A DNA stretch of 64,000 nt from Eubacteriales Family XIII. Incertae Sedis bacterium (lineage in GTDB: Bacteria > Bacillota > Clostridia > Peptostreptococcales > Anaerovoracaceae), in assembly GCA_031264295.1 (NCBI GenBank), contig JAISED010000086.1, positions 62,001 to 126,000 of the forward strand. The letters run 5' to 3'. Shown in pieces: positions 46,289 to 57,675 of this stretch (position 1 is the first letter of the stretch; each line of letters begins with the position of its first letter). The translations under genes were made by a program, and so were the position numbers. The notes under the pieces were generated by a model. The model was not told the origin of the DNA. It did no database searches and saw nothing but the letters and a program-made list of their open reading frames with translations.

Positions 46289-47440
46289 ATGGATTACACC
46301 CTCATGCACAGAGAAATGCCTGTCATGGAGATCGAGATAGACGAAGAGACCGGCGTAATCAGTAAAATCGGTGAGCTTATTAATGCGCCGCATCTTCCTG
46401 TCGGGCTTAAAATGGTTAATGGGATTCCGAGTCGTCGAGCGCTTAACGAGTGGTGGACGGGGCGGGCTATCCCGGCAAGCAGGGTGGGACTTCGCGATGC
46501 GCTGAAACGTATGAATGTGTCCTCGCCGCAATTTCTGTTGACGAGGTGTTTTGGCTTGTCGCTCTCGGATCAGTACTGGGTGCGCTCCGAAAAGAAGTTG
46601 ATCGAATGGAAAGACGTGAATTTTTTCGACAATGCGTTTTCGGATGACGTCGGTGAAATTCTTTTCGGCGGAATGTCGGTCGGCAGACCGGATCTAATGT
46701 CGCCGGACAATACTTCGGACGGATGGCTCAAGAAGAAGTGGATTATAGTTAACGGCGAACGCTGGTTGGTAAAGGACGGAAGTCCGGCGTTTTACCAGGA
46801 ACCGCTTAATGAAGCGCTGGCAAGCGCGATTATGCGGCGACTGGGTGTGGCTCACGCGCATTACAATATTGTGTACGAGCACGGACGACCGTTTTCGGTA
46901 TGCGCCGACTTTGTAGGCTCTGAGACTGACCTGGTATCCGCACGGAGTATAATAAGCACGGCGAAGAGACCGAAACATATATCGGAATACAGGCACTACC
47001 TGGATTGTTGTGAACGTCTGGGCATACCCGGCGTAGAGCAAAGCCTTAATGAAATGCTGACGGTCGATTTTCTGATTGCGAATACAGATCGGCACTTCAA
47101 TAATTTCGGCGCGATACGAAACGCCGAGACCCTTGAATGGATTGGCGCGGCGCCTGTGTTCGACTGCGGCGCATCAATGTATTACGACAGGCTGACTGAA
47201 TTGATAAACCCCCGGCTTCCGGGTGAGAGCAAGCCGTTTTGCCCGTCACATGATGAGCAGATAAAACTTGTTACAGATTTTGGATGGCTTTCGATGGAGT
47301 CGATGCACGGTATCGACGAGGAATATTCTGATATACTGAAGGGCAGTGAATATATAGACGGCGCCCGCCGGGCCAACCTGTGCAGCGCTATTGAAACGCG
47401 GGTGGGGATTTTGCGGGATATCGTCGCCGGGGCTTTTTAA
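46289..47440 (+). CDS. HipA-like serine/threonine kinase, orphan
   Basis: The 383-residue protein carries an N-terminal domain (1-150; ALNEWWTGRAIPASRVGLRDAL and GLSLSDQYWVR) typical of Bacillota HipA-like proteins and a HipA_C kinase core. Lys/ATP-site WLVKDGSPAFYQEPLNEALA, catalytic Asp267 in NTDRHFNNFG and the metal-binding Asp292 in FDCG are present, so it should be active. E. coli HipA phosphorylates glutamyl-tRNA synthetase. No HipB-like DNA-binding partner is adjacent, although hicB/hicA genes are. In frame after the stop, another 23 open codons follow. Confidence 0.85.
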   Translation: MDYTLMHREMPVMEIEIDEETGVISKIGELINAPHLPVGLKMVNGIPSRRALNEWWTGRAIPASRVGLRDALKRMNVSSPQFLLTRCFGLSLSDQYWVRSEKKLIEWKDVNFFDNAFSDDVGEILFGGMSVGRPDLMSPDNTSDGWLKKKWIIVNGERWLVKDGSPAFYQEPLNEALASAIMRRLGVAHAHYNIVYEHGRPFSVCADFVGSETDLVSARSIISTAKRPKHISEYRHYLDCCERLGIPGVEQSLNEMLTVDFLIANTDRHFNNFGAIRNAETLEWIGAAPVFDCGASMYYDRLTELINPRLPGESKPFCPSHDEQIKLVTDFGWLSMESMHGIDEEYSDILKGSEYIDGARRANLCSAIETRVGILRDIVAGAF

Positions 47441-47635: not shown

Positions 47636-48025
47636 TTACTTGCGTTTGCTCTCCTTCGGCGTGACGCATACGCCTTTGGCGCGGCAGACGACTATAGGTT
47701 CGTCGAGTGAATCCGCCGCCGACGGGCTGATGTCGGGTCTGGCAGCGACGACCTTTCTGGCTTCGAATTTCATCTTTCTCGAGGTGTTACCGATCTCGGT
47801 AATCTCGCCATAGGCTTCGATGTAGTCGCCCGCGTAGATCGGCGCGAGGAATTCAACCTCATCATAGCGCAAGAATAAGCCCTCGTCTCCGTCGAGCTTG
47901 ATAAGCAGTTCTGTGGCGACGTCGCCGAACAGATGAACCGAATGAGCGCCGTCAACTAAACTGCCACCGTAGTGCGCATCTTTGTGGGACATCCGCAGTC
48001 TCAATAAACTTGTAATTTTTTCCAT
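47636..48025 (-). CDS. kal: 3-aminobutyryl-CoA ammonia-lyase
   Basis: The 129-residue hotdog-fold protein ([20 protein letters not shown]) matches Kal of the lysine-fermentation pathway, with the [20 protein letters not shown] segment. It removes ammonia from L-3-aminobutyryl-CoA to give crotonyl-CoA. AGGAGGG precedes the ATG. The gene is divergent from kdd and has its own sigma-54 type promoter at 48142-48157, 117 bp upstream, facing the kdd promoter across shared inverted repeats. Confidence 0.9.
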
Positions 48026-48141
48026 CTTCTACCCTCCTGACATATGATATAACATAAAGCAACTGATTGGGACATCCGGCAAAATTCGCGTAAGATCCCC
48101 CTTGCAAACCGATAAAAACGGTCATTTTGTTATGCTTAAAA

Positions 48142-48157
48142 TGCAAATAACGTGCCA
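48142..48157 (-). promoter_or_regulatory. Sigma-54 promoter of kal
   Basis: Minus strand TGGCAC-GTTAT-TTGCA, a perfect match to the -24/-12 consensus TGGCAC-N5-TTGC(A/T), with the kal start 117 bp downstream. Confidence 0.85.
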
Positions 48158-48217
48158 TAAGCGCTGAAACCGCGCCCGGCGTGTACAACAGATGTTTCGG
48201 TTTTTCAATCTTCACAC

Positions 48218-48266
48218 TGAACCGCAAACTGAGTCATAATCGGTTCAATATTGACGGGATTGAACC
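48218..48266. promoter_or_regulatory. Inverted repeats, candidate activator (enhancer) sites between kal and kdd
   Basis: TGAACCG (48218-48224) and CGGTTCA (48241-48247) are an exact inverted pair; GGTTCAAT (48242-48249) and ATTGAACC (48259-48266) form a second exact pair around a 9-bp spacer. Three TGAACC half-sites in all. They lie about 60-110 bp from the kal sigma-54 element and 145-190 bp from the kdd one, the usual distance for an enhancer-binding protein. Confidence 0.7.
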
Positions 48267-48408
48267 TGAATCTGTTCATCGGCATAGCGCTGACGGGGTG
48301 TTTATGAGGATGGGGGCGGCGTGAAATGCGGCCTGCATTTTAGTCTGACGCGGAATATCAAGCAGTGTACAGGAGGCGGCACAGGCGCCATATGGCGGCG
48401 AAGCCGGT

Positions 48409-48424
48409 GGCACGGCATTTGCAT
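48409..48424 (+). promoter_or_regulatory. Sigma-54 promoter of the kdd-kam operon
   Basis: TGGCAC-GGCAT-TTGCA, a perfect -24/-12 match, 163 bp upstream of kdd. The remaining gap (48425-48587) holds a leader with no clear riboswitch. Together with the kal promoter and the inverted repeats this explains the 562-bp gap 48026-48587. Confidence 0.85.
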
Positions 48425-48587
48425 GTAGTAAATGTAAGAAAACTATATTGCTCTAGTGCCGCGCGGCCTTTAAAAGTTGCCAGATTGTCGGAAATCGCGG
48501 GGTACTAGGTAAGCCTGATAATAAGTTCGAGGAATAAACGGCTTACGTTTCGCCGGCTGTGATGGTCGGCAAGAAAGGAGATTAGAG

Positions 48588-49619
48588 ATGAAGAAAGGAT
48601 GCCCGTTCGGAACACACAGAGTTATTTCCCCGAAAGGCGTTCTGCCCCAACCGGCGGACGTGATTGATAACACGATGGAGATTTATGACAATGAAGTCCT
48701 CATTGATGTGCAGACTTTGAATGTCGACTCAGCCAGCTTCACGCAGATCGAAAAGCAGGCGGGCGGAGACATTGAAGAGATCAAGAAGATCATGAAAGGC
48801 ATTGTCGCAAAGGCGGGCAAGCATAAGAATCCCGTTACAGGTTCGGGCGGTATGCTCATAGGCACGGTCAAGGAGATAGGTCCTGCGTATGAAGGTCCCC
48901 TGAAGGTGGGTGATAAGCTTGCTACATTGGTTTCACTCTCATTGACGCCGTTGGTGATCGAGGAGATCTTGGACGTTAGACCTGCTATCGATCAGGTGGA
49001 CATCAAGGGTCAGGCGATACTGTTCCAGAGCGGGATATATGCGGTGCTTCCGAAGGATATGCCTGAAACGCTGGCCTTATCGGCCTTGGATGTGGCGGGC
49101 GCTCCGGCGCAGGCGGCGCGGCTCGTGCAGGCCGGAGATATTGTCGTGGTTATCGGCGGCGGCGGCAAGTCGGGCTTGCTGTGCCTGCATGAGGCGAAGA
49201 AGAGGGCAGGCGTGACAGGAAAGGTCATTTGCGTCGGCGGGAGCGAAAAATCGACTGAAAGAGCAAGGAAATTGGGGTTGGCTGATGAGTATTTCCCGTT
49301 TGACGCTACAGATGCCGTGGGACTTTATAATAAGGTCTCTGAATTGACGGGCGGAAAGCTGGCAGATCTTGTGATAAACTGTGTTAATATTGAGAATACT
49401 GAAATGGCGTCAATACTGGCGTGCAGGGATCGCGGAACTGTGTATTTCTTCTCAATGGCGACGAGCTTTACGAAGGCAGCTTTAGGCGCCGAAGGCGTAG
49501 GCAAAGACGTGAACATGATCATTGGCAATGGATATTGCAAGGATCACGCGGATATAGCGCTCCAGGTTCTTCGCGAGAACGAGGGACTGAGGAAACTTTT
49601 TGAAGAAATGTATGCGTAA
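48588..49619 (+). CDS. kdd: L-erythro-3,5-diaminohexanoate dehydrogenase
   Basis: The 343-residue protein (MKKGCPFGTHRVISPKGVLPQPAD) has the characteristic Kdd N-terminus and a Rossmann segment IVVVIGGGGKSGLLCLHEAKK. It oxidatively deaminates 3,5-diaminohexanoate to 3-keto-5-aminohexanoate with NAD. AAAGGAG precedes the ATG. First gene of the sigma-54 operon kdd-kamA-kamB-kamC-kamD-kamE-ctfA-ctfB. An intercistronic hairpin follows it. Confidence 0.93.
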   Translation: MKKGCPFGTHRVISPKGVLPQPADVIDNTMEIYDNEVLIDVQTLNVDSASFTQIEKQAGGDIEEIKKIMKGIVAKAGKHKNPVTGSGGMLIGTVKEIGPAYEGPLKVGDKLATLVSLSLTPLVIEEILDVRPAIDQVDIKGQAILFQSGIYAVLPKDMPETLALSALDVAGAPAQAARLVQAGDIVVVIGGGGKSGLLCLHEAKKRAGVTGKVICVGGSEKSTERARKLGLADEYFPFDATDAVGLYNKVSELTGGKLADLVINCVNIENTEMASILACRDRGTVYFFSMATSFTKAALGAEGVGKDVNMIIGNGYCKDHADIALQVLRENEGLRKLFEEMYA

Positions 49620-49664: not shown

Positions 49665-49714
49665 TAATTTTATCAATGGCGAGTAATGAAGGCGGAATAT
49701 GAGGAGATTTTGTG

Positions 49715-50977
49715 ATGAGTAAGATAAGGAATTGGAAAGATGTACCTCTCTGGAAAGATGTCAGCGATGCGGATTGGAATGATTGGCGGTGGCAGATCAG
49801 AAACAGGTTGTCAAGTGTAGATGAGATCAAACAGATCGTCAACCTGACGCCGAAGGAAGAAGAGGATATCGCGAAGGTAATGGACGGCTTCCGTGTGGGC
49901 ATTACCCCGTATTATGCCTCTTTGATGGATCCGGACGACCATAGATGCCCGGTCAGGATGCAGGCAGTGCCTATATTGTCGGAAACCCACAGAGGCGAGG
50001 CGGATATGTTGGATCCCCTTCATGAGGACGAGGATTCGCCCGCTCCGGGATTGACACACAGGTATCCCGACAGGGTGCTGCTGCTTATAACGGATCAGTG
50101 TTCTATGTATTGCAGGCACTGTACAAGGCGCAGGCTCGCGGGCGAGAATGACGGCGCAAGGAGCAGAAGCGATATTGAAAAGTGCATTGAATATATACGC
50201 AAGACGCCGGAAGTGCGGGATGTGCTGCTCTCGGGCGGCGACGCTCTGTGCGTTTCGGATGAGATGCTGGAATTCGCTATAAGTGAATTGAGGAAGATAC
50301 CCCACGTGGAGATCGTGAGAATCGGCTCCAGGACGCCTGTTGTAATGCCGATGCGTATAACCGACGACTTGGTGAATATGTTGAAAAAATACCATCCTAT
50401 ATGGCTGAATACGCATTTCAATCACCCGAAGGAGATGACGGAGGACGCGATTAAGGCGGTGACGAAGCTGGCGGACGCGGGTATTCCGCTGGGGAATCAG
50501 AGCGTGTTGCTGCGTGGTTTGAACGACTGTCCGCACATCATGCGTGAACTGGTGCATGTGCTGGTGAAGAACAGGATAAGACCGTATTATATCTATCAAT
50601 GCGATCTTTCGCTGGGCATTGAGCATTTCAGGACGAAGGTGTCGAAGGGTATAGAGATAATCGAAGCGCTGCGCGGGCATACGTCGGGCTTTGCTGTTCC
50701 GACCTTTGTAGTGGACGCTCCGGGCGGCGGCGGGAAGACGCCTGTGATGCCGCAGTATATGATCTCGCAGATGCCTGACAGGGTGGTGCTCAGGAATTAT
50801 GAGGGCGTGATAACTACCTATACGGAACCGCGTCATGAAGTTGATGTTGAGTGTACATGCGATTATTGCACAGGCAAGAAGAGCTATCATTATGAGGGTG
50901 TTGCGGCGCTGGTCGAAGGCGATAGGCTTTCTCTGGAGCCGGAGGGCCTGCTGAGACATACAAGAAATAAAAAATAG
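49715..50977 (+). CDS. kamA: Lysine 2,3-aminomutase
   Basis: The ATG at 49715 is eight bases from GAGGAG; a GTG at 49712 is closer. The 420-residue radical-SAM enzyme has the cluster motif C129-x3-C133-x2-C136 (CSMYCRHCTRR), the PLP-binding region near VVDAPGGGGKTPV and the C-terminal zinc/tetramer segment with CTCDYC. It interconverts L-alpha-lysine and L-beta-lysine, the entry step of lysine fermentation. Length matches clostridial KamA. Confidence 0.97.
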   Translation: MSKIRNWKDVPLWKDVSDADWNDWRWQIRNRLSSVDEIKQIVNLTPKEEEDIAKVMDGFRVGITPYYASLMDPDDHRCPVRMQAVPILSETHRGEADMLDPLHEDEDSPAPGLTHRYPDRVLLLITDQCSMYCRHCTRRRLAGENDGARSRSDIEKCIEYIRKTPEVRDVLLSGGDALCVSDEMLEFAISELRKIPHVEIVRIGSRTPVVMPMRITDDLVNMLKKYHPIWLNTHFNHPKEMTEDAIKAVTKLADAGIPLGNQSVLLRGLNDCPHIMRELVHVLVKNRIRPYYIYQCDLSLGIEHFRTKVSKGIEIIEALRGHTSGFAVPTFVVDAPGGGGKTPVMPQYMISQMPDRVVLRNYEGVITTYTEPRHEVDVECTCDYCTGKKSYHYEGVAALVEGDRLSLEPEGLLRHTRNKK

Positions 50978-51047
50978 AACCCGCAGGCGCTGGACGGCGG
51001 AGATAGCATAGGATCAGGCGGCGGATGAGGGCTTGAAAGGTGTGATA

Positions 51048-52088
51048 ATGGGACTGTTACGCGAGATTTCAAGTAAATATAGGGTCGTATCGGTGATAGG
51101 CATGGCCAAGAACGCCGGGAAGACTACCACACTTAATTATCTCATCGCGGAGGCCGAGGACGAGGGTCTGCGCCTGGGTATAACGTCCACCGGCAGAGAC
51201 GGGGAAACGGTTGATCTGGTGACGGGTACGGAAAAGCCCAAGGTGTTTCTCCCGGAGGACGCTATCGTAGCCCTGCCGTCGGAGCTCTATGAGCTTTCCG
51301 ATGCGGGGCTTGAGATATTGCGCTTGACGGAGCATTCGACGTCTATGGGACAGGTGATGCTCTGCAGGGTTGCAGAAAGCGGATATGTGCAGATCGCGGG
51401 GCCGGTGTCGACGTCCGGGCAGAAGGAAATATGCGCGGAGATGCTTGGTCTGGGCGCGGAGATGGTGCTTATAGACGGCGCCATCGACCGGAGGGCTATA
51501 GCCAATCCGGAGGCGTCGGATGCTGTGATACTGGCGACGGGAGCGGCGCTTTCGCGCAGCATGTCTAAGGTGGCGGAAGAAACGGCATGTGTAGCCGAGC
51601 TTTACGGTCTCCCCGAGATCGATGAGGCATGGATGAGGGATGAAATCCTGAAAGAATCAAATGCGGGCAAAATCATCATCTTCAAGGGTGATCGCGCCAG
51701 GGTGTCAGAGCTTAAAACGGGACTAGCCGCAGGCGCGGCGCTGGGCAATCTGATAAAAAAGGATGAGGGGTATGTGTATATACCCGGAGCCTTGACGGGC
51801 AGCGTCATAGCAGGTTTGCCGACGGACGTTCTGCGAAACACCGCTATCATAGTCGCCGATCCGACACGTATATTTCTGGACAGAACGGAGTGGATGCGGC
51901 TTAGAAAAAAGGGACTTAGGGTTTTTCTGATGGCGGGGGTCAAGATCGCCGCGATAACTGTGAATCCTTGGTCGCCGGAGGGTTATTCCTTCGACAGCGA
52001 CGCCCTTGTAGAGAGCATCGGCGCTTTCGTGAGCGGAATACCTGTTATCGACATCAGGAAGGGTAAACGCGATGAAAATTTCAAGTGA
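51048..52088 (+). CDS. kamB: KamB-type P-loop protein of the lysine-aminomutase operon
   Basis: The ATG at 51048 is seven bases from AAGG; a TTG at 51033 is possible. The 346-residue protein has Walker A at GMAKNAGKTTTLNYLI (about residues 18-33) and an NTPase fold of the MinD/MobB kind; MVLIDGAIDRRAIA may hold the second acidic motif. KamB is found with KamC between kamA and kamD in fermentative clostridia and fusobacteria. Its role is unproven; reactivation or cofactor delivery for the B12 mutase has been suggested. It overlaps kamC by 17 bp, so the two are probably made together. Confidence 0.78.
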   Translation: MGLLREISSKYRVVSVIGMAKNAGKTTTLNYLIAEAEDEGLRLGITSTGRDGETVDLVTGTEKPKVFLPEDAIVALPSELYELSDAGLEILRLTEHSTSMGQVMLCRVAESGYVQIAGPVSTSGQKEICAEMLGLGAEMVLIDGAIDRRAIANPEASDAVILATGAALSRSMSKVAEETACVAELYGLPEIDEAWMRDEILKESNAGKIIIFKGDRARVSELKTGLAAGAALGNLIKKDEGYVYIPGALTGSVIAGLPTDVLRNTAIIVADPTRIFLDRTEWMRLRKKGLRVFLMAGVKIAAITVNPWSPEGYSFDSDALVESIGAFVSGIPVIDIRKGKRDENFK

Positions 52089-53751
52089 AAGGACGAAGCG
52101 AGAAATCGGGTTTCCGGAAATATTGGCGGGAATCAGCCCTTCCACACCGTTTGGCAAGAAGAGGATGGCGGATATGAAGCCATATTTGCCCGGTGATGAA
52201 GCACGGCTGGAGGGTGAATTTGACAGACTTGAAAAAATTTGCTATATATTGCTTGCTTACAAAGAAGAAACAGATAAGATCATAAGTATATTTTCGCACT
52301 TCAAAGAGATATCGGCGACGTTCAGGAAGAGCAAGGATGAAGTGCTGTCTACGATAGAATTGTTTGAGGTAAAGCGTTTCCTTTTATATACGGACGAACT
52401 CAGAAGCATTTGTGAAAGAATCGGTGTGGATATGCCGGGCAGTTTTTTAACGGAGGATACGACGGAGTTGCTTAGCGAGTTGGATCCGGAGGGGAACAGA
52501 TTGCCGACGTTCTATATATATGATTTCTTTTCAGAGAAGCTGGCGGAGCTGCGTGGTGAGAAAAAGGGGCGGGAACGCGATTACCGCAGTGAGCAAAAGC
52601 GGCTTGCGGCGGAGCTTCAAAGGGAATATGGCATAACGTTGACGCCGAAGTTCGATCTTACTGTCGCCAGGAGCGACGCGGCGAGGCTTGAGGCGGCGGA
52701 ACATGCGGCAGCGCTGCAGCGGGGCGACGAGGACAATTTCTCGGTCACATTTAAGCTCAGAGCCGGGGAAAAGGGACGCGGTCTGCAAGCAGAGATTGAT
52801 GAGTTGTCGGCCTTGATAGAGGACGAGGAGTTTATCGTCAGAAAGAGATTGACTAAATTAGTCAATAAACATTCTAAGAGGCTGATAAAGAATTGCCAGC
52901 GAATCGGGGAGCTTGATTTCGTGATGGCAAAGGGGATTTATGCGGTAAAACATTCGTGTGTGCGTCCAAAGATTGTGAGGATCCACACACTGAGGATAGA
53001 AGAGGGAAGGTATCTTCCTTTAGAACGCTTTCTGAAAAGCAAGGGACAGGAGTACAACCCGGTAAGCATAATCCTTGATGAAGGCGTTACATGCATTACC
53101 GGCGCCAATATGGGCGGCAAGACCATTTCGATGAAGTTGGCGGGACTTGTGGCTATGATGGTGCAGTACGGGCTATTCGCGCCGTGCAAGTCGGTTTTCG
53201 CCGGGCTCTCGTCGTCTATACATATATTAATAGGCGACAGTCAGGATATTCAAAGGGGGCTTTCGAGTTTCGGCAGTGAAATGGAGGAGTTGAACAGGAT
53301 ACTCACGGACAGCGGTGATAGGGCGATGATATTTATAGATGAGATAGCGGGTTCCACGAATCCGCAGGAAGGGCGCGCTCTCACCAAGAGTCTGCTGAAA
53401 TATCTCTCGAACAAGCCTTATATAAGCCTGATGACGACGCACTTCGATCATGTGGCGGATGGGCAGCAGGGCATTGTGAATCTGCGGGTTCGGGGACTTG
53501 CGGACGCGGATTTCGATAAACTCGCCGGCGTACTTAAGACGGCGGGTATGAAGGAACGGATAGAGATATTGACGAGGTTGATGGACTTCAGGCTTGAACG
53601 TGTAGGCGGCGACGTGGAAATCCCCAGAGAGGCGCTGCGTATAGCGGAGATCCTTGGCTTGAAGGATGAGATAATAGAAGGCGCGAGGGAAATACTCAAA
53701 GCGGACGTACAGCCAGGCGCGATGGAAATGTTCAAAGCGGACGTGCAGTAA
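52072..53751 (+). CDS. kamC: KamC, MutS-like ATPase of the lysine-aminomutase operon
   Basis: The 559-residue protein has a helical MutS-core-like half (1-330) and a MutS C-terminal ATPase: Walker A GANMGGKTISMKLAGLV, Walker B MIFIDEIAGSTNPQEG and the switch TTHFDHV. It lacks the mismatch-recognition domain, so it is a MutS relative rather than a repair protein. AGGAAGGG precedes the ATG. Its last 24 codons are two 36-bp tandem units, the second ending with the stop codon. Role in 5,6-aminomutase maintenance is assumed from context only. Confidence 0.8.
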   Translation: MKISSERTKREIGFPEILAGISPSTPFGKKRMADMKPYLPGDEARLEGEFDRLEKICYILLAYKEETDKIISIFSHFKEISATFRKSKDEVLSTIELFEVKRFLLYTDELRSICERIGVDMPGSFLTEDTTELLSELDPEGNRLPTFYIYDFFSEKLAELRGEKKGRERDYRSEQKRLAAELQREYGITLTPKFDLTVARSDAARLEAAEHAAALQRGDEDNFSVTFKLRAGEKGRGLQAEIDELSALIEDEEFIVRKRLTKLVNKHSKRLIKNCQRIGELDFVMAKGIYAVKHSCVRPKIVRIHTLRIEEGRYLPLERFLKSKGQEYNPVSIILDEGVTCITGANMGGKTISMKLAGLVAMMVQYGLFAPCKSVFAGLSSSIHILIGDSQDIQRGLSSFGSEMEELNRILTDSGDRAMIFIDEIAGSTNPQEGRALTKSLLKYLSNKPYISLMTTHFDHVADGQQGIVNLRVRGLADADFDKLAGVLKTAGMKERIEILTRLMDFRLERVGGDVEIPREALRIAEILGLKDEIIEGAREILKADVQPGAMEMFKADVQ

Positions 53752-53794: not shown

Positions 53795-53879
53795 ACGGAT
53801 CGTCGGCGATGTGAAAAATAGAGGGCGGATGTATAAAGTCCGTATGTTAAATAGAACTTATCCGAAAGGAGACAGACAA

Positions 53880-55424
53880 ATGAGCAAACTAAATCTTGAC
53901 CCGAAAATAATCGACAGCGCGCGAAACTGCGCGGGCAGTGTTGCGGGCAGCGTGCAGGAATTCATAGACAAGCACACCACGGTCAGCACGGAGAGAACCA
54001 TCGCCAGGCTGCTCGGCATCGACGGTGTGGACGAAGTGGAGTCGCCGCTTCCTAATGTGTTGGTCGATCAGTTGAAGGACGCGGGTGTGCTTGACAGGGG
54101 CGTGGCGTACTGGATAGGCGGCGCTATGAAGGCGACAGGCATGAGGCCGCAGGAGATCGCGGAGGATGTGGCAACCGGCAAGTTGGACATGACAAAGCTG
54201 CCGGCGGTTTCAGCCGATGAGGCTCTGGCGCAGGTGCTGCCTATAGTCCATGAGTCGCTGAAGAAGATCAAGCTGCAGCGCAAGGCGCGAGAAGATATGA
54301 TAGAGACTATAGGCGAGGGACGCAGACCTTATCTATATGTTATAGTCGCAACCGGCAATATCTATGAAGACGTGGTGCAGGCGCAGGCTGCCGCCAGACA
54401 AGGCGCTGACATAATAGCGGTCATAAGGACGACGGCGCAAAGTCTGCTCGACTATGTGCCATACGGTCCCACGACAGAAGGCTTCGGAGGAACCTATGCC
54501 ACACAGGAGAATTTCCGTATTATGCGTACTGCTCTTGATGAGGTGGGCAAGGAAGTCGGCAGGTATATTAGACTTTGCAATTATTCGTCGGGCATGTGTA
54601 TGCCTGAGATCGCCGCGATGGGCGCGTTGGAACGCTTGGACGTGATGCTCAATGATGCGCTCTATGGCATATTGTTCAGGGATATCAACATGCAGCGCAC
54701 GCTGGTCGACCAATATTTCTCAAGAGTGATAATAAATTACAGCGGAATAATATTCAACTCGGGCGAGGATAACTATCTTACGACGGCGGACGCCTTTGAA
54801 GAGGCGCATACGGTGCTTGCGTCGCAGTTTATCAACGAGCAATTTGCGGTATTGGCGGGGATACCAGAGGAACAGATGGGTCTGGGACACGCCTTTGAGA
54901 TGGATCCCAATATAGAGGACGGATTCCTCTATGAGCTTGCGCAGGCGATAATGGCGAAGGAGATATTCCCGAGGGCGGCGCTGAAGTACATGCCGCCGAC
55001 GAAATTCATGACGGGTAATATCTTCAAGGGGCATATTCAGGACGCGCTGTTCAACATGATAGCCGTCTGGTCGGGGCAGTCCCTGCAGCTTTTGGGGATG
55101 CTCACGGAGGCCATTCACACACCGCATCTGCAGGACAGATTCTTGTCAATAGAGAATGCTTCTTACATTTTCAATAATGCACGGCATCTGGGTGATGAGG
55201 TGGAGTTCAAGAAGGACGGGATTATCCAGAAACGCGCCCAGGAGGTGCTGGCCGAGGCGGAGCGCTTGCTCAAGCAAATAGAGAAGGAAGGCCTGTTCGC
55301 CACTATCGAACAAGGTAAATTCGGAGGGGTGAAGAGAGCCAGAGACGGCGGAAAGGGTCTTGAGGGCGTGGTCGTCAGACACAGCGATTATTTCAACCCC
55401 TTTATCCCGTTAATGATGCAGTAG
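53880..55424 (+). CDS. kamD: Lysine 5,6-aminomutase alpha (large) subunit
   Basis: The ATG at 53880 (MSKLNLDPKIIDSARN) follows AAAGGAGACAG; upstream in-frame codons lie in the repeat tail of kamC. The 514-residue protein is the TIM-barrel subunit of the PLP- and adenosylcobalamin-dependent mutase, with the segments YVPYGPTTEGFGGTYATQENFRI and NDALYGILFRDINMQRTLVDQYFSR well conserved in the family. It moves the terminal amino group of L-beta-lysine to give 3,5-diaminohexanoate. KamE supplies the cobalamin domain. Confidence 0.96.
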   Translation: MSKLNLDPKIIDSARNCAGSVAGSVQEFIDKHTTVSTERTIARLLGIDGVDEVESPLPNVLVDQLKDAGVLDRGVAYWIGGAMKATGMRPQEIAEDVATGKLDMTKLPAVSADEALAQVLPIVHESLKKIKLQRKAREDMIETIGEGRRPYLYVIVATGNIYEDVVQAQAAARQGADIIAVIRTTAQSLLDYVPYGPTTEGFGGTYATQENFRIMRTALDEVGKEVGRYIRLCNYSSGMCMPEIAAMGALERLDVMLNDALYGILFRDINMQRTLVDQYFSRVIINYSGIIFNSGEDNYLTTADAFEEAHTVLASQFINEQFAVLAGIPEEQMGLGHAFEMDPNIEDGFLYELAQAIMAKEIFPRAALKYMPPTKFMTGNIFKGHIQDALFNMIAVWSGQSLQLLGMLTEAIHTPHLQDRFLSIENASYIFNNARHLGDEVEFKKDGIIQKRAQEVLAEAERLLKQIEKEGLFATIEQGKFGGVKRARDGGKGLEGVVVRHSDYFNPFIPLMMQ

Positions 55425-55592: not shown

Positions 55593-56360
55593 ATGGCTGG
55601 TGATATAGCGACCACCAAGGTCGATCTGACAAGGGTTAAGCCTTATGGGGATACAATGAACGACGGCATGACCGAGGTGACGTTCACGTTGCCCGTCCCC
55701 TACGGACCCGAGGCGGATGAGGCGGCTAAGCAAATCGGTTCCAAGATGGGGCTAGATGAAGCAAGCGTCGCGTTTTCAAAGGATCTGGGGCAGGGCTTTA
55801 CATTCTTTGTAATGTACGGGAAATGTCAGCATACGGTGGATTTCACCACTATAAAGGTGGCGAAAGCGGATGTTGAGATTATGAGTCGTGAAGAGTGTCA
55901 GGAATATATTTTGAATAATATAAAAAGAAATGTTATAATAGTAGGCGCGACATCGGGCACGGACGCGCATACTGTAGGCATAGACGCTATTATGAACATG
56001 AAGGGGTTCCATGGGCATTACGGGCTGGAAAGATACAAGGGCATCGAGGCCATAAATATGGGTTCGCAGGTGCCGAATGAGGTTTTGATCGCGAAGGCGA
56101 TAGAACTGAACGCCGACGCGATAATCGTTTCGCAGATAGTAACGCAGAAGGATGTACATGTAAAAAATCTGACCAATCTGGTTGAGTTGATTGAGGCCGA
56201 GGGGATTCGCGACAAGATTGTACTGTGTTGCGGAGGACCGCGTATCTCGTATGAATTGGCGCAGGAACTCGGCTATGACGCGGGATTCGGTTCCCACACA
56301 TATGCGGAGGATGTGGCGTCATTTATACTTACTGAAATGGTGCGGAGGAATTTAATATGA
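55593..56360 (+). CDS. kamE: Lysine 5,6-aminomutase beta subunit (cobalamin-binding)
   Basis: The 255-residue protein has the B12-binding DxHxxG signature GTDAHTVGIDAIMNMKG, with His126 as the expected lower cobalt ligand, and a Rossmann-like domain (about 115-250). The N-terminal part holds the PLP lysine and dimer strands in this family. GGAGG precedes the ATG. The 168-bp gap after kamD contains a CTGCC/GGCAG hairpin and a TATAAT-like word near 55550, so an extra internal start of transcription is possible. Its stop overlaps the next gene as ATGA. Confidence 0.95.
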   Translation: MAGDIATTKVDLTRVKPYGDTMNDGMTEVTFTLPVPYGPEADEAAKQIGSKMGLDEASVAFSKDLGQGFTFFVMYGKCQHTVDFTTIKVAKADVEIMSREECQEYILNNIKRNVIIVGATSGTDAHTVGIDAIMNMKGFHGHYGLERYKGIEAINMGSQVPNEVLIAKAIELNADAIIVSQIVTQKDVHVKNLTNLVELIEAEGIRDKIVLCCGGPRISYELAQELGYDAGFGSHTYAEDVASFILTEMVRRNLI

Positions 56361-57037
56361 TCGACAAGATTAAGACGGCAGACGAGGCGGTGGCGGTGAT
56401 CGGAGACGGGGCAAGTGTCATGATAGGTGGATTTATGGCCTGCGGAACCCCCGAGATTCTCATCGACGCGCTTGTTCGCAAGGGATCGAAAAACCTGACT
56501 ATTATCTGTAATGACGCGGGTGTTCCCGGCAGGGGCGTGGGCAAGCTTCTTTCGAACGGTCAGATAAAAACCCTGATCGCGTCCCACGTCGGCTTGAACC
56601 CCGAGGTTGCGCGGAGAATGAATACAGATGTACCTGAGGATAAGCTTGAATGCATACTGGTTCCTCAGGGTACATTGGCTGAAAGGATAAGAGCGGGCGG
56701 CAGCGGTCTCGGAGGCTTTCTTACGCCGACCGGCGTCGGAACCATCGTCGCGGACGGCAAACAGGTGATCAATATCGAAGGGAGGGATTATTTGCTTGAA
56801 CTCCCTCTAAAGGCTGATTTTGCGTTTATACGCGGAACAGTTACGGATAAATTCGGAAATACAATATATAACGGTACGACAAAGACCTTCAATCCGATGA
56901 TGGCTACTGCGGCGAAGCACGTGATAGTCGGCGCTTGCAAGATCGTAGAGGTCGGGGAGATCGACCCTAATAATGTCGCCACATCCGGGATATTTGTTGA
57001 TGTTATCGTAGGAGGTGAGCAGCAATGGCAGATATAA
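56357..57037 (+). CDS. ctfA: CoA-transferase subunit A (butyryl/acetoacetate type)
   Basis: The 226-residue protein ([20 protein letters not shown]) has the SCOT-family alpha motif [19 protein letters not shown], with GTxGxxN-type phosphate region [14 protein letters not shown]. It is the AtoD/CtfA subunit that, with subunit B, moves CoA between butyryl-CoA and acetoacetate/acetate, closing the lysine-fermentation pathway. Start overlaps the kamE stop by 4 bp; its own 3' end overlaps subunit B by 13 bp. Confidence 0.92.
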
Positions 57038-57675
57038 AAGCTGTGATCGCGGCGCGTGTAGCGAAGGAACTTAAAGACGGCGACGTCGTAAATCTTGGAA
57101 TCGGTCTGCCTACTATGGTAGCGGATTATCTGCCGGAAGGGGTCAGTATAATACTGCAGTCCGAGAACGGCATAATGGGCATGGGTTCGGCCGCTGAAGC
57201 CGGGAAGGAAGATGTGGACGTCGTGAACGCCGGCGCTCAGTATGTTACCATAAATCCGGGCGGCATGTTCTTCGACAGCGCCACTTCATTCGGGATCATC
57301 AGAGGCGGGCATGTAGACGCGACGGTGCTCGGAGCGCTGGAGGTGGACGATAAGGGGAATTTGTCTAACTGGATCGTGCCGGGAAAGATGGTGCCGGGCA
57401 TGGGCGGCGCGATGGATCTGGTAGTGGGTGCGAAAAAGGTGATAATAGCCATGACCCACATGCAGAAGGGTAAGCCGAAGATCTTGAAAGAGTGCACCCT
57501 TCCGTACACCGCCGTAGGGGTGGTGAATCTCATCATTACGGAAATGGGCGTTATGGAGATCACCCCTGAGGGGATCGTTCTGAAGGAAATACATCCGGAC
57601 TTCACACCGGAACAGGTGCAGGAAGCTACAGAAGCGAGGATTATCATAAGTCCTGATCTTATTCCTATGAGGTAG
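57025..57675 (+). CDS. ctfB: CoA-transferase subunit B (butyryl/acetoacetate type)
   Basis: The 216-residue protein has [16 protein letters not shown] and the catalytic glutamate motif SENGIMGMG, which forms the enzyme-CoA thioester. GGAGGTGAGCAGCA precedes the ATG inside the end of subunit A. As last gene of the operon it is followed by a good terminator. Confidence 0.93.

Follow-up and report, generated by a model that had tools for sequence, protein, structure and literature searches.

Sigma-54 regulons were reconstructed in 57 Clostridiales by Nie et al. 2019 (PMC6615313), who distinguished 39 activator groups. The sensor domains named in the part of that survey considered here include PAS, GAF, PrpR_N, ACT, CBS, V4R, ferredoxin, and hydrogenase-like domains, among others. 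The same part lists neither a lysine-fermentation regulon among the 39 groups nor a dehydrogenase-like sensor domain in its catalogue. The open-access literature contained no account of a regulator for lysine fermentation or of the KDD-domain activator presented below, and no description of an enzyme-derived dehydrogenase sensor in sigma-54 activators was found there. Lysine fermentation is one route to butyrate in animal guts. Here, the gap between the divergent lysine-fermentation genes kal and kdd was analyzed in a 64-kb window (the whole stretch of DNA under study, 64,000 nucleotides) and compared with the corresponding gaps of related genomes.

Gene organization of the kal-kdd region

The gap (48026-48587) is flanked by kal on the minus strand and by the gene series kdd-kamA-kamB-kamC-kamD-kamE-ctfA-ctfB on the plus strand. 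The gene names in the region were checked against NCBIfam models, and all of them were confirmed.

47636-48025, minus strand, kal, 3-aminobutyryl-CoA ammonia lyase, 129 aa (NF052388, 187.7 bits; cutoff, 160)
48588-49619, plus strand, kdd, L-erythro-3,5-diaminohexanoate dehydrogenase, 343 aa (NF052381, 262 bits; PDB 7DL3, E 1.4e-113)
49712-50977, plus strand, kamA, lysine 2,3-aminomutase (TIGR03820)
51033-52088, plus strand, kamB, lysine 5,6-aminomutase reactivase subunit (NF052386)
52072-53751, plus strand, kamC, reactivase ATPase, MutS-like (NF052383)
53811-55424, plus strand, kamD, lysine 5,6-aminomutase alpha (NF052384)
55593-56360, plus strand, kamE, lysine 5,6-aminomutase beta (NF052385)
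56357-57675, plus strand, ctfAB (atoDA-like), CoA-transferase subunits (TIGR02429 and TIGR02428)

The host genome, that of a gut bacterium, is a 2.79-Mb draft of 88 contigs and is 86% complete. The kdd of a sister species (L018) is 97% identical to that of the window. An Rfam search of the region matched no RNA element. A gene for a HipA_C-domain protein of 383 aa (window positions 46289-47440) is located near the 3' end of kal. The lysine-fermentation gene absent from this series, kce, sits apart from the kdd-kam genes, at G000:C8:15728-16534 (L217; NF052387, 413 bits). Neither a sigma-54 element nor the palindrome described below was found near kce on contig C8, and its membership in the same operator regulon in this genome was rejected on that ground. 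How kce would be coexpressed with the kdd-kam genes is unexplained, given that it has no such elements.

Divergent sigma-54 promoters

Analysis of the gap revealed two -24/-12 elements of the sigma-54 type, one directed toward each set of genes, with kal as the gene served by the minus-strand promoter.

48142-48157, minus strand, sigma-54 -24/-12 element of kal, TGGCACGTTATTTGCA; exact match to TGGCACG-N4-TTGCW, predicted transcription start at about 48131
48408-48423, plus strand, sigma-54 -24/-12 element of kdd-kamABCDE-ctfAB, TGGCACGGCATTTGCA; exact match to TGGCACG-N4-TTGCW, predicted start at about 48434

The original prediction of perfect TGGCAC-N5-TTGCA elements, one per strand, was confirmed by the sequence. 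The minus-strand position was correct; the plus-strand element is present, but its earlier position of 48409-48424 was off by one. Both elements conform to TGGCAY-N5-TTGCW, with GG and GC 10 bp apart, and they are the only exact TGGCAC-N5-TTGCA sequences in the window. Genome-wide, just four exact TGGCAC-N5-TTGCW sequences exist, two of them in the kal-kdd gap. The pattern TGGCAYR-N4-TTGCW has five exact matches, including the two in the gap and one ahead of an amino-acid permease gene on contig C77. Sigma-54 control presupposes rpoN, the absence of which from the genome had been named as a result that would speak against the proposal; the gene was found at G000:C52 (Sigma54_AID, 65.7 bits). 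At the level of sequence, these results support the reading of the kal-kdd gap as a divergent sigma-54 control region.

Another exact sigma-54 element, at G000:C19:49727-49742 (L017:1501-1516), is positioned between a gene for a CBS-PAS activator (L004) and an acyl-CoA dehydrogenase-like gene. It probably belongs to a separate regulon.

A palindrome pair between the promoters

The unit that recurs in the gaps of relatives is an 18-bp palindrome, YGAACC-N6-GGTTCR, and therefore the true operators of the window are imperfect rather than exact copies.

48230-48247, no strand assigned, putative upstream activator site A, TGAGTCATAATCGGTTCA; 2 mismatches to YGAACC-N6-GGTTCR
48261-48278, no strand assigned, putative upstream activator site B, TGAACCTGAATCTGTTCA; 1 mismatch, 31 bp from site A
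48218-48223, plus strand, extra TGAACC half-site

Sites A and B stand between the two promoters, and their 31-bp spacing matches that of the pair ahead of kdd in relatives (usually 31-33 bp). The L018 counterpart of site A is a perfect palindrome, TGAACCGAAAACGGTTCG. The extra half-site may still matter because it is conserved in this sister species, as the window/L018 alignment demonstrates. Overlapping, exact inverted repeats with TGAACC half-sites had been proposed for this stretch. Three TGAACC/GGTTCA half-sites are indeed present (48218-48223, 48242-48247, and 48261-48266), but the proposed 30-bp and 25-bp units do not recur in relatives. The 30-bp TGAACC-N18-GGTTCA repeat and the everted 25-bp repeat were therefore rejected as the operator in favor of the 18-bp unit that the relatives have in common. 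Palindromes with no more than one mismatch number about 24 genome-wide among the matches listed. Two of these palindromes lie no farther than 200 bp from one of the five exact sigma-54 sites, against an expectation of 0.017.

Conservation of promoters and palindromes in relatives

Mapping by tblastn gave 110 kdd loci, some of which are two copies of one locus. In most relatives of the family, kal and kdd are separated by a gene, about 690 codons long, that is read on the kdd strand. Its flanking gaps (44 non-redundant kal-side gaps and 53 kdd-side gaps) were scanned for sigma-54 elements with at most one mismatch, and dinucleotide shuffles of the gaps served as controls. An element directed toward kal was detected in 38 of the 44 kal-side gaps (reversed, 0; shuffled mean, 0.09), and one directed toward kdd was detected in 48 of the 53 kdd-side gaps (reversed, 0; shuffled mean, 0.20). 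The palindrome, with up to two mismatches allowed, was present in 43/44 kal-side gaps (shuffled, 0.5) and in 53/53 kdd-side gaps (shuffled, 1.1). The alignment of relatives' gaps that the original prediction had suggested as a check thus showed both promoters and the shared operator to be very strongly conserved.

Among the nearest relatives, L018 has both promoters and a better-preserved palindrome pair, and the conserved blocks of its alignment with the window include the promoters, the palindrome sites, and the kdd ribosome-binding region. The kal promoter element is conserved in L018, L020, L021, and L022, the last three being clade members with likewise divergent genes. In L023, kal and kdd are codirectional and are preceded by one promoter and one perfect palindrome. 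The stretch of L024 that was examined has the promoter and no clear palindrome. Tandem kdd pairs occur in many relatives (L034, L038, L040, L042, L057, and others), with about 70-77% and 78-85% identity to the kdd of the window.

In order-level relatives, the activator encoded ahead of kdd has no KDD-like domain; the sigma-54 element there is perfect, and the GAACC palindrome is absent. Because the perfect element is kept there with a different activator, sigma-54 control of the kdd operon probably predates the KDD-domain activator.

Domains and fold of the KDD-domain activators

In most relatives, the product of the gene that separates kal from kdd is an enhancer-binding protein, and about 340 aa at its N terminus are homologous to KDD. 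The host genome of the window has a single KDD-domain activator, a protein of 696 aa encoded on contig C77 (G000:C77:11185-13275, minus strand) and referred to below as the C77 protein. Its N-domain matched NF052381 with 130.5 bits (E 6e-38), which is below the equivalog cutoff of 200, and it matched PDB 7DL3 across the whole domain (E 4e-24). This domain is accompanied by a Sigma54_activat AAA+ domain (PF00158, 211 bits) in which GAFTGA is present and by a Fis-type helix-turn-helix (HTH_50 and HTH_8). In an AlphaFold2 model of the Aminicella lysinilytica relative (mean pLDDT 78), the N-domain matched 7DL0 with a TM score of 0.80 (Foldseek), and the AAA+ domain matched NtrC1. No NCBIfam model spans the whole KDD-AAA+ fusion. 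A search of 350 family genomes returned a match in 184, about 21 of which match just at the level of the kdd enzyme; therefore, about 160 of the 350 genomes have a KDD-domain activator, and many have several.

The KDD-like domain as a probable sensor

The nucleotide loop of the activators was compared with that of 101 KDD sequences. Neither the kdd-adjacent activators nor those of the window clade retain the NAD(P)-binding loop GGGGKSG. The kdd-adjacent group has lost nearly all loop positions past the first glycine, and SSDLLSA replaces the loop in the C77 protein. Many other invariant enzyme residues are altered in the same two groups, and GK 77-78, NP 81-82, Gly88, Gly92, Pro121, Asp260, Glu272, and Glu302 (numbering of the window KDD) are kept in activators. 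Glu302 aligns with Glu310 of the solved 3,5-DAHDH, a residue reported to contact the NADPH amide (PMC9902596); all kdd-adjacent activators and those of the window clade retain this residue. Nucleotide binding has likely been lost in the activators, though not certainly so, because the Glu302 equivalent is kept. A third group of activators (L218:2980-5052, L219:5916-7988, and L220:2894-5011) keeps the nucleotide loop in part or nearly whole and has a KDD-like N-domain 40% identical to the enzyme. These proteins are possible intermediates between enzyme and sensor.

The simplest inference from these comparisons is that the KDD-like domain would sense the substrate or the product of the enzyme. 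It might instead still be a working dehydrogenase, or a redox sensor responding to NAD(P)H/NAD(P) and not to an intermediate. The loop of L220 (IIGANGKIG), which is near-intact as in the enzyme, and the retained Glu310 equivalent would fit such a role. We regard it as unlikely, as both the kdd-adjacent group and the window clade have another sequence in place of the loop, and many further invariant residues have changed.

Which activator serves the gap

The search for an activator gene inside the window with PF00158 gave no match. The nearest AAA+ match on the same contig, G000:C3:52897-53397 (L011), is a short member of the activator family without GAFTGA or a helix-turn-helix and was rejected. 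The original prediction had suggested looking for a sigma-54 activator near the kam genes; in the window genome, the candidate is encoded on another contig, and in most relatives, a paralogue of it lies between kal and kdd.

A tree of the activators (quick search, SH-aLRT only, with several long branches) separated the kdd-adjacent activators from a second branch, which holds the C77 protein. A simple move of the kdd-adjacent activator to contig C77 was rejected, since the tree places the C77 gene in the other branch. The window-clade genomes in which an activator was found (eight or nine) have the C77 type only, with no kdd-adjacent-type copy, and for this reason the kdd-adjacent activator appears to have been lost in the lineage of the window. 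In the second branch, the activator genes of L165, L173, and L169 adjoin CoA-transferase, thiolase, and aminotransferase genes, and that of L166 adjoins a gene for an NhaC/ArcD-like transporter. These gene neighbors suggest that the KDD-domain activator family controls other amino-acid fermentations. Tandem KDD-domain activator genes were also observed at L221:3071-7312 and L222:2258-6423, ahead of a kamA homologue (67-68% identity) and ctfAB, and an exact sigma-54 element precedes the kamA homologue.

As the C77 protein belongs to a paralogous branch, shared operator recognition has to be argued from its recognition helix and from the permease site. The recognition helix reads GISQSQLMRKKQKY, similar to GISQTQLVRKKKKY in the kdd-adjacent activators; the eight other activators of the genome have dissimilar recognition helices. 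The permease gene downstream of the C77 activator gene has a sigma-54 element and the only perfect palindrome of the genome, and the permease of a sister genome carries the same element and palindrome. In four sister genomes, the C77 orthologue is located directly behind kce. These three links between the C77 protein and the gap are good circumstantial evidence, short of proof, and the protein may be taken with fair confidence as the activator of the gap. This paralogue would have taken over the kal/kdd operators after loss of the kdd-adjacent gene. Firing of both transcripts by one enhancer-binding protein, as originally proposed, agrees with the shared operator pair and the single candidate activator.

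The divergent sigma-54 region could, however, depend on a different activator of the genome (PAS, CBS, or response-regulator type), with control by the C77 protein confined to the neighboring permease. The genome encodes eight further full activators, and the non-KDD activator ahead of kdd in order-level relatives indicates that this operon can exchange one activator for another. That reading is quite improbable in view of the tie between the palindrome and KDD-domain activators in 43/44 and 53/53 gaps, the recurrence of the palindrome beside the C77 gene, the lack of a matching recognition helix in any other activator of the genome, and the coupling of the C77 orthologue to kce in sister genomes. 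Because the genome is 86% complete, an unseen activator elsewhere in the host is possible. The mismatches in both gap sites and the lack of an element or palindrome near kce likewise weigh against the C77 reading.

Spacing of the sites

The C77 reading treats the palindromes as enhancer sites. On the kal side of the intervening gene, the palindrome center lies 48-50 bp from the -12 element in 37/37 gaps that have both; on the kdd side, the palindrome is usually paired, with 31-33 bp between copies. Half-sites of the GAACC sort are common palindromes, and the sites might be bound by a repressor, or by a global regulator, with no relation to sigma-54. We hold this to be very improbable, given the rigid distance to the -12 element, the tandem copies at three helical turns, and the co-occurrence of the sites with the activator gene. 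Fixed spacing and tandem copies are the usual layout of enhancer sites for sigma-54 activators. Chance matches, already called very unlikely in the original prediction, have a negligible probability, as 0.03 exact TGGCAC-N5-TTGCA elements are expected per window, two occurred in 0/100 shuffles, and the elements are kept in relatives.

Discussion

The kal-kdd gap is, in our judgment, likely to be a divergent sigma-54 region that is activated through the 18-bp pair, most likely by the KDD-domain protein of contig C77 sensing a pathway intermediate. Promoters, operators, rpoN, domain make-up, fold, and conservation are features of the sequences themselves; from them we infer binding, activation, and ligand. 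Sigma-54 RNA polymerase would wait at the two -24/-12 elements, for kal and for kdd-kam-ctf. A hexameric enhancer-binding protein on the site pair, about 95 and 125 bp from the kal -12 and about 150 and 180 bp from the kdd -12, would open both promoters by looping. This activator would most likely be the C77 protein, in which the KDD-like domain is followed by the GAFTGA-containing AAA+ domain and then by the Fis-type helix-turn-helix. The KDD-like domain would probably be a sensor of 3,5-diaminohexanoate or 3-keto-5-aminohexanoate. Such a sensor of the enzyme's substrate or product would place the pathway under induction by one of its own intermediates; the original prediction had proposed lysine or a pathway intermediate as the inducer. 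The C77 protein probably drives the adjacent amino-acid permease too.

On balance, we favor an origin of the activator family by capture of the lysine-fermentation dehydrogenase as a sensor. The family would have shed the nucleotide loop stepwise and given rise to paralogues for neighboring amino-acid fermentations, with the sensor reporting the enzyme's own substrate or product. In the lineage of the window, one paralogue would have assumed control of another's operators once the gene in the kal/kdd gap was lost. If true, a sigma-54 activator that senses with a reused pathway enzyme would clearly exemplify how ligand specificity is acquired by regulators, and forms in which the loop is kept, partly kept, or lost coexist in living genomes as intermediates of this change. 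The defined operator YGAACC-N6-GGTTCR, the activator family, and the ligand hypothesis make the control of lysine fermentation directly testable.

The system resembles the sigma-54 regulons of Clostridiales amino-acid fermentation (PrdR, OrdR, LeuR, and others), which, as described in the part of the survey considered here, likewise have palindromic sites ahead of the operons and are run by one-component activators sensing intracellular signals, as is proposed for lysine fermentation (PMC6615313).

With the NtrC/NtrC1 family of AAA+ activators (bEBP), the KDD-domain activators have in common the Walker motifs, GAFTGA, the Fis-type helix-turn-helix, and the NtrC1 AAA+ fold; they differ in an N-domain that is a homologue, about 340 aa long, of a pathway enzyme. 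With the KDD enzyme (PDB 7DL0/7DL3), the sensor domain shares whole-length homology and fold, whereas the kdd-adjacent and window-clade activators are without the nucleotide loop and are fused to AAA+ and DNA-binding domains. The logic is like that of MocR/GabR, where a transcription factor for related metabolism senses through a retained enzyme fold. GabR, however, is of the GntR type, has an aminotransferase fold, and is not a sigma-54 activator. The promoters of the gap are sigma-54 promoters of a familiar type, and the novelty is the activator with its KDD-like domain.
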